Assembly (NCBI RefSeq): GCF_024506395.1
Contig: NZ_JANIBO010000001.1
Coordinates: forward strand, 1,550,001 to 1,614,000
Origin: Cetobacterium sp. NK01
GTDB lineage: Bacteria > Fusobacteriota > Fusobacteriia > Fusobacteriales > Fusobacteriaceae
Direction of reading: 5' to 3'
Length of the DNA: 64,000 nucleotides
Shown: positions 3,313 to 59,963 of the stretch, piece by piece
Layout of the letters: each line of letters starts with the position of its first letter
Position numbering within the stretch: the stretch's first letter is position 1
Notes under the pieces: model-generated
Told to the model about the DNA's origin: nothing
Databases searched by the model: none
What the model saw: the letters and a program-made list of their open reading frames with translations, nothing else
Made by a program: the position numbers and the translations under genes

Positions 3313-5190
3313 ATGAAAAAAAGATTTTATATTGCAGGATTGATTCTTGCATCTAGTTTATCAATGGGACAAGACAAGGTTGTGAAGTTAGAAGAAAGTG
3401 TTATAACAAGTGAAAATACAGAGACAACAATAGCAGATATACCTAAAAATATAACTGTATTAACAGGGGAAGAGATAACGCAAAGGGGAGCGAAAACAGT
3501 AGCAGAAGCTTTAAAATTAGTATCAAGTGTCACTGTAAAAGAGATGGGTGGAGCAGATGCCGCTTTTGATATAAGAGGTCAAGGGCCTACAGCAAAGTCA
3601 AATGTTATAGTATTAGTTGATGGAGCGCCAATTAATTCGATTGATTTATCAGGATATCAAACAAGCAATATTCCAGTAGATAATATAGAGAGAATTGAAG
3701 TAATACCTTCTGGAGGGTCAGTTTTATACGGAGATGGAGCAGTTGGAGGAACAATAAATATAGTGACAAAAGCACCTGAAAATAAAAAAAATTATGGAAG
3801 CTTAAATAGTGAAATAGGATCTTATGGATTAAAAAAACAGCAAATTACATATGGAACTAAAATAGGAGAAAAGCTTTTAGTTGAAGTAGATTATTTGAAA
3901 AAAGAAAAAGATGGATATAGGGATTATTCTAAAGATGATTTACAAAGTTTTGGATTTAGAAGTAGATATAAACTTAATGATGGAGAGTTAAAATTTAAAT
4001 ATAATTATTCTAAAAATGATTTTAAAGCTCCGGGAGCATTGACTAAAGATGAAGTTAATGAAGACAGAACACAATCTAATCCAAATGCTTGGAGAATTGA
4101 TGGAAAAACAGAGAAAAATAATTTTGTAGGAGATTACTTATATAATATAAATTCTGATTTAGAATTTAAACTATTAGGAAGATATGCTCATGAAAACTAC
4201 TCTTCAAATGGAAGTAATTACAAGACAGAAGTTAAATATTTAAAGCCACAACTTAAATATTCATATTTAGATGAGAATTATGTTGTATTTGGTGGAGATA
4301 TTTATCAGGGAGAGACAAGAGATTTTGCTTATGGAAATGGAAAATCTGAAAAAAACTCTTTAGGTGGATTTATAATAAATAGTTCTACAATAGAGAAGTT
4401 TAGATTTACTCAAGGATACAGAAGGCAAAATATTGAATACAAGGGAGATAGATTTGCAACAAGAAAGTTTAAAGAAGATGCAATAGAACTGACAGGAAGC
4501 TATTTATATTCTGATTCGGGATCTACATATGTAAGCTATACCAAAGGATTTAGAGCACCTAATACAGATGAAATAAATGCTTGGGCAGGAGAATTTAATC
4601 CTCAAAAAACAGAAACTTATGAAATTGGAGTAAAGGATTTTGTAGGGAATACATATATCTCAACATCAGTATTCTATATAGAAACAGAAAATGAAATTTT
4701 CTATGGAGTAAATAAAAACGATGAATTTAATAAAAATAGAAATTTAGATGGAACAAGTAAGAGAAAAGGAATAGAGTTTTCTTTAGAACACTATTTTGAT
4801 AAATTGACAATATCGGAATCAATAACTTATATGAAAACAGAGTTTAAAGAAGGGAAAGATATTCCTGGAATTCCTAATATAAAGGGAGTATTAAACTTTA
4901 ATTATAAATTTAATGAAAAATTAAGTATGAATAACTCTTGGGAATACTATGGAAAATCTTACGATAGTAATGATGAAGCCAATGAAAGAGAGAAAATAGA
5001 TAGCTATTTATTAAGTGGATTAACTTTTGTATATGATTTTCAAGATGGATTAGTTATAAATGCTGGAATTAATAATTTATTTAATGAAAAATATTATGAT
5101 TATGTAGGATATAGTAGTTATAGTAAAACTCGTAATTACTACCCTGCACCAGAAAGAAATTATTATATTGGATTTAAATATAGTTTTTAA
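3313..5190 (+). CDS. btuB: TonB-dependent outer-membrane receptor, BtuB-like (cobalamin)
   Basis: A 625-residue protein with a signal peptide (MKKRFYIAGLILASSLSMG), a probable TonB box (LEESVITSE), an N-terminal plug domain (about residues 35-155, ending GGTINIVTK) and a 22-strand-type beta barrel that ends in the C-terminal aromatic (YSF) used for outer-membrane insertion. Family members import vitamin B12 or iron chelates with energy from TonB. The cobalamin riboswitch directly upstream argues for B12. A strong terminator follows, so the next gene has its own promoter. The substrate is inferred from regulation, not from residues. Confidence 0.9.
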   Translation: MKKRFYIAGLILASSLSMGQDKVVKLEESVITSENTETTIADIPKNITVLTGEEITQRGAKTVAEALKLVSSVTVKEMGGADAAFDIRGQGPTAKSNVIVLVDGAPINSIDLSGYQTSNIPVDNIERIEVIPSGGSVLYGDGAVGGTINIVTKAPENKKNYGSLNSEIGSYGLKKQQITYGTKIGEKLLVEVDYLKKEKDGYRDYSKDDLQSFGFRSRYKLNDGELKFKYNYSKNDFKAPGALTKDEVNEDRTQSNPNAWRIDGKTEKNNFVGDYLYNINSDLEFKLLGRYAHENYSSNGSNYKTEVKYLKPQLKYSYLDENYVVFGGDIYQGETRDFAYGNGKSEKNSLGGFIINSSTIEKFRFTQGYRRQNIEYKGDRFATRKFKEDAIELTGSYLYSDSGSTYVSYTKGFRAPNTDEINAWAGEFNPQKTETYEIGVKDFVGNTYISTSVFYIETENEIFYGVNKNDEFNKNRNLDGTSKRKGIEFSLEHYFDKLTISESITYMKTEFKEGKDIPGIPNIKGVLNFNYKFNEKLSMNNSWEYYGKSYDSNDEANEREKIDSYLLSGLTFVYDFQDGLVINAGINNLFNEKYYDYVGYSSYSKTRNYYPAPERNYYIGFKYSF

Positions 5191-5191
5191 T

Positions 5192-5232
5192 AAAAAATGC
5201 TCTTTTCAATATATGAGAAGAGCATTTTTTAC
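5192..5232 (+). terminator. Terminator after btuB
   Basis: A stem of about 16 bp (AAAAAATGCTCTTTTC with its complement, one G-U) and a short loop, followed by six T. Confidence 0.88.
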
Positions 5233-5237
5233 ATATG

Positions 5238-5246
5238 TGTTATAAT
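5238..5246 (+). promoter_or_regulatory. Extended -10 promoter of the btuF-like operon
   Basis: TGTTATAAT, a TG plus consensus TATAAT, placed 30 bases upstream of the next start and right after the btuB terminator. Confidence 0.6.
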
Positions 5247-5277: not shown

Positions 5278-6138
5278 GTGTTAAAAAAGGTATTTATGTT
5301 AAATATATTTGTATTTTCAATTGGATATTCAAGAATATTAGTAGATGGAATTGGTCGTAAAGTTGAAATTCCTGAAAAAGTAGAAAGAATAATTTCAACA
5401 GTTCCATCAAATACAGAGATAATAGTAGATATGGGATTAGTTAATATTTTAGCTGGAGTAGATATATATTCTGAAAAAATATCTAAAGAATTAGAAGGTA
5501 AAGGAATTCTAAATACAGATAGATTGAATGAAGAAAAAATAATGGAACTGATGCCAGATTTAGTTATAACATCCCAACACAATCTATCTAAAGGAAAAGA
5601 GAGCTTAAATATTTTTGATGAGGTTGGAATTCCTATTTATGTAATGAAAACTCCAAATTCATTAGAAGAAGTTAAAAATTCTATAGATGAAATTGGAAAT
5701 CTTTTAAATGAGAGAAAAAAGAGTGATAATTTAAAAAATAATTATGCTGAAGAATTAGAAAAGTTAAAATCACAAAAGGGAAAGGGAAAGCGAGTATACT
5801 TTGAAATTTTAAATAATCCTATATATACAACAGGAGGAAAAACATTTTTAAATGATGTTATAGAAAATGCTGGTGGAAAAAATATATTTGAAAATCAAGA
5901 GGGATGGATTTCACCGACTTTAGAATCTATTATTGAAAAAAATCCTGAATTTATATTTGTAGGTGAGGATAGAAAAGAGATTATAGAGGATATAAAAAGT
6001 AGACCAGAATGGCAAGAGATTGATGCTATAAAAACTGGAAAAGTATATTTTATAGACGAAGGGATTAATAGACCATCAACAAGAGTTTTAAAATCTTTAA
6101 AACAGATGAAGGAAGTGCTTTCAAATGATAAGTTTTAG
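5278..6138 (+). CDS. Periplasmic corrinoid/iron-type ABC substrate-binding protein (BtuF-like)
   Basis: A 286-residue class III (helical-backbone) binding protein. The GTG at 5278 follows an AGAGGTGGG ribosome site and opens a signal peptide (LKKVFMLNIFVFSIGYS); a longer frame from 5197 would overlap the upstream terminator. There is no lipobox Cys, so the mature protein should be soluble in the periplasm. The pattern DGIGRKVEIPEKVERIISTVPSNTE and the late SPTLESIIEKNPEFIF are typical of the BtuF/FecB/FhuD group. Its place after a B12-controlled receptor suggests cobalamin. No permease or ATPase gene is nearby, so the partner must lie elsewhere. Confidence 0.8.
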   Translation: MLKKVFMLNIFVFSIGYSRILVDGIGRKVEIPEKVERIISTVPSNTEIIVDMGLVNILAGVDIYSEKISKELEGKGILNTDRLNEEKIMELMPDLVITSQHNLSKGKESLNIFDEVGIPIYVMKTPNSLEEVKNSIDEIGNLLNERKKSDNLKNNYAEELEKLKSQKGKGKRVYFEILNNPIYTTGGKTFLNDVIENAGGKNIFENQEGWISPTLESIIEKNPEFIFVGEDRKEIIEDIKSRPEWQEIDAIKTGKVYFIDEGINRPSTRVLKSLKQMKEVLSNDKF

Positions 6139-7075
6139 TTTTATTCCTAAAAATGAAGAGGAAGAAAAATTTTTAAAAGTATATGAAAAATTAAGAAACG
6201 AAGGTATAACAGGTATAGAAACTATAATTGGGGATCATTTACCTTTAGAAAGTTATGAAAAGTATCCTGTAAAAGGAGTACATCTATTATACTATCCTAC
6301 TTGGTTAGAATTTTGGAGAGAGGATATGGAAAAGGTAAGAGAAGATTTTTACGATGATGAAGGAATATTAAGTTATTATCGTTCTTTTAAAAAAGAGATT
6401 TTATTAGAAACTTTTAAAAAACAATTTGAAGATGCAAAAAAAATTGGAGCAAAGTATTTAGTTTTTCATGTTTCACACGTAAGACCTAAAGATATATTTA
6501 CTTGTAATTTTGATTATACATCTATAGAGGTATTAGATGAAACCTTGAAAATAGTAAATGAAGTTTTTAAAGGCGATGGACCGTTACTGCTTTTTGAAAA
6601 TTTACCATGGCCAGGATTAACTTTAAAAGATTACGAATTAACAAAATATTTTTTTGAAAGAGTAAAGTATAAAAATAAAGGTTTTTTATTAGATTTATCT
6701 CATATAATATGCACAGAAAAAAATATAAAGAACTTTCAAGATGCAGATAGATATATTTTAAGTAGAATTAAAAATTTAAAAGACTTGAATAAATACATAT
6801 ATGGTGTTCATGTAAATGGAATTAGCTTTGAAAACTATTTGAAAAAAGATTTTTCAGGAGAAATTGAGAAGTGGTCAATAGGAAATAGAAATCAGAAATT
6901 TAAAATAGAGTGGGAACATATGAAAAAACTTGATCCACACAGGATTTATAGAGGAGATTTAAAAATTATATTTAATGAACTTCCGAATTTAAAATATATA
7001 AATTTGGAATTAAAGTTTTCATCTATCGACAATTTGAAAGAGGTAGTAAAGGAACAATTAAATTATATAAAATAA
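6125..7075 (+). CDS. TIM-barrel enzyme of the AP endonuclease 2 / sugar isomerase family; CbiR candidate
   Basis: A 316-residue protein whose start overlaps the BtuF-like gene by 14 bases, so the two are translationally coupled. Metal-ligand-like positions of the xylose-isomerase-type barrel are visible: H115 in VFHVSH, E158 in FENLPWPG, D190/H193 in LDLSH, H229 in GVHVNG and E295 in LELKF. There is no signal peptide, so it is cytoplasmic. CbiR, the cobamide-remodelling hydrolase first described in Akkermansia, belongs to this superfamily, and the B12-uptake context fits that role. Without an alignment it could also be an unrelated sugar-phosphate isomerase. Confidence 0.6.
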   Translation: MISFSFIPKNEEEEKFLKVYEKLRNEGITGIETIIGDHLPLESYEKYPVKGVHLLYYPTWLEFWREDMEKVREDFYDDEGILSYYRSFKKEILLETFKKQFEDAKKIGAKYLVFHVSHVRPKDIFTCNFDYTSIEVLDETLKIVNEVFKGDGPLLLFENLPWPGLTLKDYELTKYFFERVKYKNKGFLLDLSHIICTEKNIKNFQDADRYILSRIKNLKDLNKYIYGVHVNGISFENYLKKDFSGEIEKWSIGNRNQKFKIEWEHMKKLDPHRIYRGDLKIIFNELPNLKYINLELKFSSIDNLKEVVKEQLNYIK

Positions 7076-58937: not shown

Positions 58938-59963
58938 TTAAAATAGCAGTAGATTTTTTCTGCTGACTTCGCTATATTCTACGCCAGCAACTTTGGCAGG
59001 AGTAAGGTTACTCAATCCTTTATGCGGTGTAATGTAGTTGTAGAAGAAAAAGAAGCCTTCTAATAGTGCGTTTACACTTGTTTCGCACTTTAAACCGTGG
59101 GTTGTTCTATATTTATGTTTGAATCTTTTAAAAAAGGTTTCAATTAGGTTGTTAGTTACTTCGTCATACCATGATTGAACTTTAATATGTTTAGATTCTG
59201 AGAATACTATTTTTGTTGGAATATTGTAGCTAGGTAATCTATCAGATACTATTGATTTAGGTGCTCCAAATCGCTTTTTAACCTTATCAAACAGGTGGAA
59301 AGCAGAGGTTGCTTCTCTTGAAGTTGTAAGGTACCAATCAATAACGTATCTAGTTTCAGAGTCAATTAAAGTCCAGATGTAATATCTTTTACCTTTGATT
59401 TTAATTACAGTTTCATCAACGTGCCACTCATCAGATAGATTTAAATCTTGCGGAGTATGTTTAGAAACAATATCTTTAAATATGCCTGCAAAACCTTTGA
59501 TCCATTTGTAAATGGAGACATGAGAGATTTTAATATTTTTACGATCTAAAAGGTATTGTGAAATAGCTCTTGTGGTAGCTGAATGAACAAAATACATATA
59601 CAAAGCATCAATGACAACATTGATATTTGTTCGAAGTCTTTTGATATTAATTGTTTTAGATTTAAATTCAGAAGAAATACTATCAAAATTAGAAGTCTTT
59701 TTTACTGCAATATGAATATGATTACACTTTCTGGAATTGCATTTAAACCTAGAATAGTAAAGATAATCATGATGCAAATATGTTCCTGAATTACAAATAG
59801 GACATTTAGGATATGAACGCCTATTATCACCGAGTTTAGAATTAGCAGAGAATTGTCTAGCGCATTCTTTGCATTGGTATTTTTGATGTCCAAGATTATT
59901 TTTACCAAAACGATAAAGGTTTTTAGAGAAACAACGAGGACAAGAGATATTATTAATATACAT
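58938..59963 (-). CDS. DDE transposase of the IS240/IS6-like type
   Basis: A 341-residue transposase, apparently intact. Two N-terminal zinc ribbons (C8/C11/C31/C34 and C54/C57/C75/C80) are followed by a helix-turn-helix region (TTRAISQYLLDRKNIKISHVSIYKWI) and the catalytic domain with D183 in DEWHVDETVIK, D241 in SDRLPSY and E275 in NNLIETFFKRF, a DD34E spacing. WHVDET and the pattern around it are typical of the IS240/IS6 group; the zinc ribbons make it longer than classic IS6 enzymes. The ribosome site GAAAGGAG is about 11 bases before the ATG. Confidence 0.9.
   Translation of the reverse strand: MYINNISCPRCFSKNLYRFGKNNLGHQKYQCKECARQFSANSKLGDNRRSYPKCPICNSGTYLHHDYLYYSRFKCNSRKCNHIHIAVKKTSNFDSISSEFKSKTINIKRLRTNINVVIDALYMYFVHSATTRAISQYLLDRKNIKISHVSIYKWIKGFAGIFKDIVSKHTPQDLNLSDEWHVDETVIKIKGKRYYIWTLIDSETRYVIDWYLTTSREATSAFHLFDKVKKRFGAPKSIVSDRLPSYNIPTKIVFSESKHIKVQSWYDEVTNNLIETFFKRFKHKYRTTHGLKCETSVNALLEGFFFFYNYITPHKGLSNLTPAKVAGVEYSEVSRKNLLLF

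Follow-up and report, generated by a model that had tools for sequence, protein, structure and literature searches.

A CbiR-like protein of the endonuclease IV fold, encoded beside btuF in Cetobacterium, as a probable hydrolase of imported cobamides

Here, we provide evidence that a gene overlapping btuF in a Cetobacterium genome (Fusobacteriota, 3.1 Mb) encodes a CbiR-like AP endonuclease 2 TIM barrel of 316 aa, at positions 6125-7075 of the plus strand of the 64 kb stretch of DNA that we analysed (the window). We think it quite likely that this protein is a cytoplasmic, metal-dependent hydrolase of imported cobamides built on the endonuclease IV fold, the target being most probably the phosphoribosyl bond of the lower ligand. 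This is the bond opened by CbiR of Akkermansia muciniphila (Amuc_1679), which converts cobamides to cobinamide phosphate and alpha-ribazole by an oxygen-sensitive hydrolysis (PMC7733943). Judged by its fold, its metal ligands and its gene context rather than by an alignment to Amuc_1679, the barrel is a probable member of the CbiR kind.

The only feature returned by an Rfam scan of the 64 kb was a cobalamin riboswitch aptamer (RF00174, 3118-3286, plus strand; cmscan 92 bits, E 1.6e-21). It precedes, on the same strand, a gene for a BtuB-like TonB-dependent receptor of 625 aa (3313-5190; PF00593 122 bits, PF07715 88 bits), whose B12 specificity rests on the riboswitch because generic TonB receptor models score too. 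The next gene, at 5278-6138 of the plus strand, encodes a BtuF-like periplasmic corrinoid-binding protein (PF01497 118 bits; 78 bits against the NCBIfam BtuF model, under its cut-off of 234); its start is best placed at the GTG at 5278, and its stop lies at 6138. The barrel gene begins inside btuF, with 14 nt in common, and its product matches PF01261 at 34 bits (cut-off 31.1) and has no visible signal peptide. All four features, as well as the overlap, were found where the initial annotation had placed them. Furthermore, the gene order and the btuF/barrel overlap (14, 8 or 4 nt) are kept in 9 of 9 carriers of the Cetobacterium group, window genome included, and the riboswitch ahead of the receptor was confirmed in the four sister genomes scanned.

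The initial annotation had also set the barrel downstream of the riboswitch and the BtuB-like receptor. This position stands, but a single riboswitch-controlled unit does not, as a terminator conserved in the genus intervenes. Indeed, the gap between the receptor gene and btuF holds a terminator-like hairpin (5191-5231, plus strand; 18-bp stem followed by a T run), and a stable hairpin occupies this gap in 9 of 9 Cetobacterium-group genomes, the window's among them, with differing stem sequences. Behind it, a putative extended -10 promoter element, TGTTATAAT, can be read at 5238-5246 of the plus strand, and TGnTATAAT stands at the equivalent place in most sister genomes. With the hairpin kept throughout the genus, btuF and the barrel gene probably have their own transcript, and it is doubtful that the upstream riboswitch controls them. 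Read in this way, the two genes would be translationally coupled and served by a promoter of their own, and the riboswitch would mainly govern the receptor.

Two other elements of the window deserve mention in their own right. Between 811 and 1070, a short ORF starting near 814 and ending in NRQPIPPR and a stop codon lies ahead of a sodium/proline-type symporter gene (1025-2506); behind the ORF come two strong hairpins, of which the second resembles a terminator. Peptide and hairpins are kept in 9 of 9 sister genomes, and the element is possibly a proline-sensing attenuator. On the minus strand, at 58938-59963, an ORF resembling a transposase, in which zinc-finger-like CxxC motifs accompany an integrase-like core, is located directly upstream of a dUTPase-like gene.

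What does the structure of the barrel say about its chemistry? The AlphaFold model, computed from a 41-row alignment without rows from plasmid records, is a confident barrel (pLDDT 95.6, pTM 0.93). When it was compared with solved structures by Foldseek, the best match was E. coli endonuclease IV (Nfo; E 5.9e-9), followed by the methanobactin protein MbnB, epimerases and IolI, and the leading matches all belong to the AP endonuclease 2 superfamily. Endonuclease IV is a phosphodiesterase. A profile-profile comparison of the barrel family with Nfo gave a probability of 98.7% and aligned H115, E158, D190, H193 and H229 of the barrel with H109, E145, D179, H182 and H216 of Nfo, a mapping made on an E. 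coli Nfo sequence of the correct length with its nine known ligand letters in place. Ten residues (E32, H53, H115, E158, D190, H193, H229, D270, H272 and E295) are invariant or nearly so in 100 unique members of the family and in 11 further ones; among them, H53, D270, H272 and E295 fall outside the local Nfo alignment but follow in the expected order. The metal-ligand set of the endonuclease IV type thus appears complete, and phosphodiester chemistry would fit the barrel for this reason. The AP endonuclease 2/xylose isomerase fold assigned to the protein at the outset, together with its metal-ligand-like residues, is therefore well supported by the PF01261 match, by the predicted structure and by the conservation within the family.

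The family to which the barrel belongs is sharply bounded. On the family profile its members reach 242 to more than 400 bits, whereas the next-best proteins, which are true Nfo, do not exceed 40. A tree of 66 sequences sets the family apart from the Nfo clade (support 98 for the latter), and the members linked to cobTUS, to cbiZ/cobN and to uptake genes all fall inside the family; the tree was made by a quick method, with SH-aLRT supports only and some long branches. The family is spread over Fusobacteriota, Clostridia, Negativicutes and Treponema: 29 of 98 Fusobacteriota carry the gene, as do 15 of 396 genomes of one clostridial order, and when 84,980 species genomes were scanned, 80 loci came up, all from Bacillota, Fusobacteriota or Treponema. 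A set of 291 genomes from other phyla yielded no full-length relative, and its weak matches are nearly all Nfo; a 16S probe gave no Verrucomicrobiota in this set, the best identity to the segment used being 68-75%. A search of viral contigs returned no relative, and among plasmid records relatives occurred only in Fusobacterium vincentii and Acetoanaerobium noterae. A RecA search of the plasmid records gave no Akkermansia chromosome among the organisms listed. The two records NZ_CP084075.1 (F. vincentii, 2.1 Mb) and NZ_CP154629.1 (A. noterae, 2.6 Mb) are filed as plasmids and are of chromosome-like size, the former carrying recA.

The gene neighbourhoods of the family repeatedly involve corrinoid metabolism. 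The Cetobacterium loci follow the order riboswitch, receptor, BtuF, barrel, and in a sister genus (L038) the riboswitch and the receptor gene are followed by a cobalamin adenosyltransferase gene and then the barrel. In Clostridium and Oceanirhabdus (L085, L087) the barrel follows a riboswitch, BtuF, BtuC and BtuD, and Sporomusa and its relatives combine it with a riboswitch, a receptor, BtuC and BtuD, often together with CbiZ or CbiK. In the clostridial order mentioned above, the gene lies beside cobT-cobU-cobS in 11 of the 15 carriers, on the same strand in eight. Moreover, five loci (L206, L208, L209, L211 and L212) present one same-strand run, btuF-btuC-btuD-cobT-cobU-cobS(-cobC)-barrel, with a cobalamin riboswitch in front in all four of those scanned. 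The btu and cob genes of this run provide import, ligand activation and rebuilding without the removal of the lower ligand, and the barrel fits this gap. Cobalamin riboswitches were found in many further barrel loci.

More than half of the unique members (53 of 100), mostly from Cellulosilyticum, Epulopiscium and Clostridium, have no recognised B12 gene within 8 kb. In L068, L076, L088, L098, L110, L123 and similar loci of Cellulosilyticum and Epulopiscium relatives, the barrel gene sits in a conserved uvrC/hprK-like neighbourhood; in loci of this type a small membrane-protein-like ORF (about 176 aa) precedes it, and B12 genes are absent from the vicinity.

A different arrangement is seen in several Fusobacterium-type genomes, where genes for CbiZ, a CobN-like protein, a radical SAM protein, and ChlI-like and ChlD-like proteins accompany the barrel. 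cbiZ is present in six of the 98 Fusobacteriota, and all six copies lie inside the gene cluster of the barrel. We noticed the cluster, with a radical SAM/SPASM and a ChlD/VWA-like protein, in L049 (25-9903), L047, L050, L052, L053, L056 and L121, and in part in L115 and L141. From its gene content, it looks like a set for the stepwise removal of the lower ligand of a corrinoid, of its linker and perhaps of its metal. CobN-like proteins include the heme de-chelatase HmuS (PMC12583661) and BtuS1/2 (PMC6460266). CbiZ, the adenosylcobinamide amidohydrolase, likewise serves cobamide remodelling, the role proposed here for the barrel, and is encoded in the barrel's gene cluster in six Fusobacteriota genomes, but the two are unrelated in sequence, the barrel having no PF01955 (CbiZ) match, and CbiZ cuts an amide bond.

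The initial annotation had proposed that a full salvage route sits in one locus. This is not borne out, since btuCD and the rebuilding genes lie elsewhere: the host genome, surveyed by targeted searches and by reading stretches of it, has, near 1.058 Mb, a CbiK-BtuF-BtuC-BtuD cluster preceded by a riboswitch, and thus its inner-membrane importer about 0.5 Mb from the window locus, while cobU-cobS-cobC-cobT are found on contig 1 near 694-697 kb, about 0.86 Mb away. A gene run around CbiD on contig 2 reads as an anaerobic corrin pathway (the names other than CbiD being read from the sequences), and from these genes the host is taken to make corrin rings, and B12, de novo. Salvage would therefore not be needed to live, and the likely benefit, for a host that makes corrinoids itself, is the use of foreign cobamides in its preferred form. 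No CbiZ (PF01955) was found in the host genome. All 29 Fusobacteriota carriers of the barrel have CobS, but so do 51 of the 69 non-carriers; outside this phylum 42 of 50 carriers have it, and most of those lacking it are draft metagenome or single-cell assemblies.

How would the barrel act in such a cell? An imported cobamide would be bound by BtuF and brought in by BtuCD. The barrel would then cut the phosphoribosyl bond, as Akkermansia CbiR does, giving cobinamide phosphate and alpha-ribazole. CobU would activate the cobinamide phosphate, and CobS would join to it a new alpha-ribazole phosphate made by CobT, so that these enzymes and CobC, encoded elsewhere in the genome, would attach another lower ligand. 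The overlap of btuF and the barrel gene would tie stripping to import. A point against this scheme is that identity between the window protein and the members linked to cobTUS is only about 25%, so that the activity could have drifted.

Like CbiR, the window protein adopts the AP endonuclease 2 TIM-barrel fold and carries conserved His, Asp and Glu ligands; members of its family sit with cobT, cobS, cobU and corrinoid transport genes, and the rebuilding genes are present, and cbiZ absent, in its host. In contrast to CbiR, its own neighbours are btuF and the TonB receptor gene, with no cobamide biosynthesis genes adjacent. Homologs of CbiR have been described in 22 phyla, most of them in Chlorobi, Chloroflexi and Proteobacteria, with 80% next to cobamide genes and 25% next to transporters; adjacency to cobamide genes served there to choose the members of the CbiR tree (PMC7733943) and is not a requirement for function. 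Unlike those homologs, the relatives found here belong to Fusobacteriota, Bacillota and Spirochaetota. An uptake-linked relative in Fusobacteriota is nevertheless in line with what is known, given the 22 phyla and the 25% beside transporters, and the barrel family is probably a further, uptake-linked branch of CbiR-type enzymes. The CbiR-like enzyme foreseen in the initial annotation finds good support in a barrel closest to endonuclease IV, with invariant ligands, and in its linkage to cobTUS, cbiZ, btuFCD and riboswitches in three phyla.

A rather doubtful variant of this scheme, although one that we do not hold to be negligible, is that the family is not orthologous to the Akkermansia-type CbiR and consists of separate uptake-coupled cobamide phosphodiesterases from the endonuclease IV branch, some of which start a stepwise disassembly of corrinoids. 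In some Fusobacterium, Negativicutes and Treponema the order would then be the barrel for the lower ligand, CbiZ for the linker and CobN-ChlI-ChlD for the metal. It is unlikely, in our view, that the barrel is a corrinoid-linked hydrolase acting on another bond or another corrinoid (for instance a bond close to the aminopropanol linker, a cobamide that is damaged or incomplete, or alpha-ribazole phosphate) for clean-up or recycling rather than lower-ligand exchange. The gene context indeed says no more than that the family is part of corrinoid metabolism, several members accompany CbiZ and the CobN-ChlI-ChlD chelatase set in a way more like corrinoid disassembly than ligand exchange, and the host seems to be a de novo producer. 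However, the endonuclease IV-type metal site fits phosphodiester cleavage, which is also the reaction of the fully characterised CbiR, of the same fold and gene context (PMC7733943), and without the barrel, the btuFCD-cobTUSC-barrel runs would be one step short of remodelling.

The superfamily itself suggests two further identities. A sugar-phosphate isomerase or epimerase of the IolI/xylose isomerase type, lying near B12 genes by chance, is highly improbable: the barrel shares its Pfam superfamily with such enzymes, and of all solved structures its sequence matches IolI, the 2-keto-myo-inositol isomerase, best (19.5 bits with the single protein, 31.8 bits with the profile), but the fold search puts endonuclease IV first, the barrel's ligands are those of the phosphodiesterase branch, and a B12 linkage repeated in three phyla is not coincidence. 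IolI differs moreover in reaction class and gene context, and we rejected this identity, the match being weak and far below any cut-off. A role as an AP endonuclease (deoxyribonuclease IV) in DNA repair is hardly credible at all. Nfo offers the nearest solved fold, the same metal-ligand set and a weak NCBIfam match (17.7-18.1 bits), yet the nfo cut-offs are 129.65 and 376, the gap on the family profile is that between more than 240 and at most 40 bits, and the barrel has about 25 extra residues between the ligands H229 and D270. Furthermore, the host has a separate true Nfo (215 bits on PF01261), along with a mannonate-dehydratase-like and a UV-endonuclease-like protein of the same superfamily. 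With scores so far under the models and a position outside the Nfo clade, this identity was rejected as well, and the better isomerase or DNase IV match against which the CbiR assignment had initially been set did not appear.

If the barrel does cut the lower-ligand bond of imported cobamides, its family makes lower-ligand stripping likely in Fusobacteriota, in many Clostridia, in Treponema and in relatives of Sporomusa as well, and links this stripping to import. It depends on which gut bacteria are able to rework the B12 variants of other species who can feed whom. The clostridial run, with its riboswitch, importer, stripping and rebuilding genes, is a compact, self-contained unit that could be moved to E. 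coli. Cetobacterium has been reported as a supplier of vitamin B12 in fish guts (PMC10268390); should our reading be true, it would be both a producer and a remodeller of B12.
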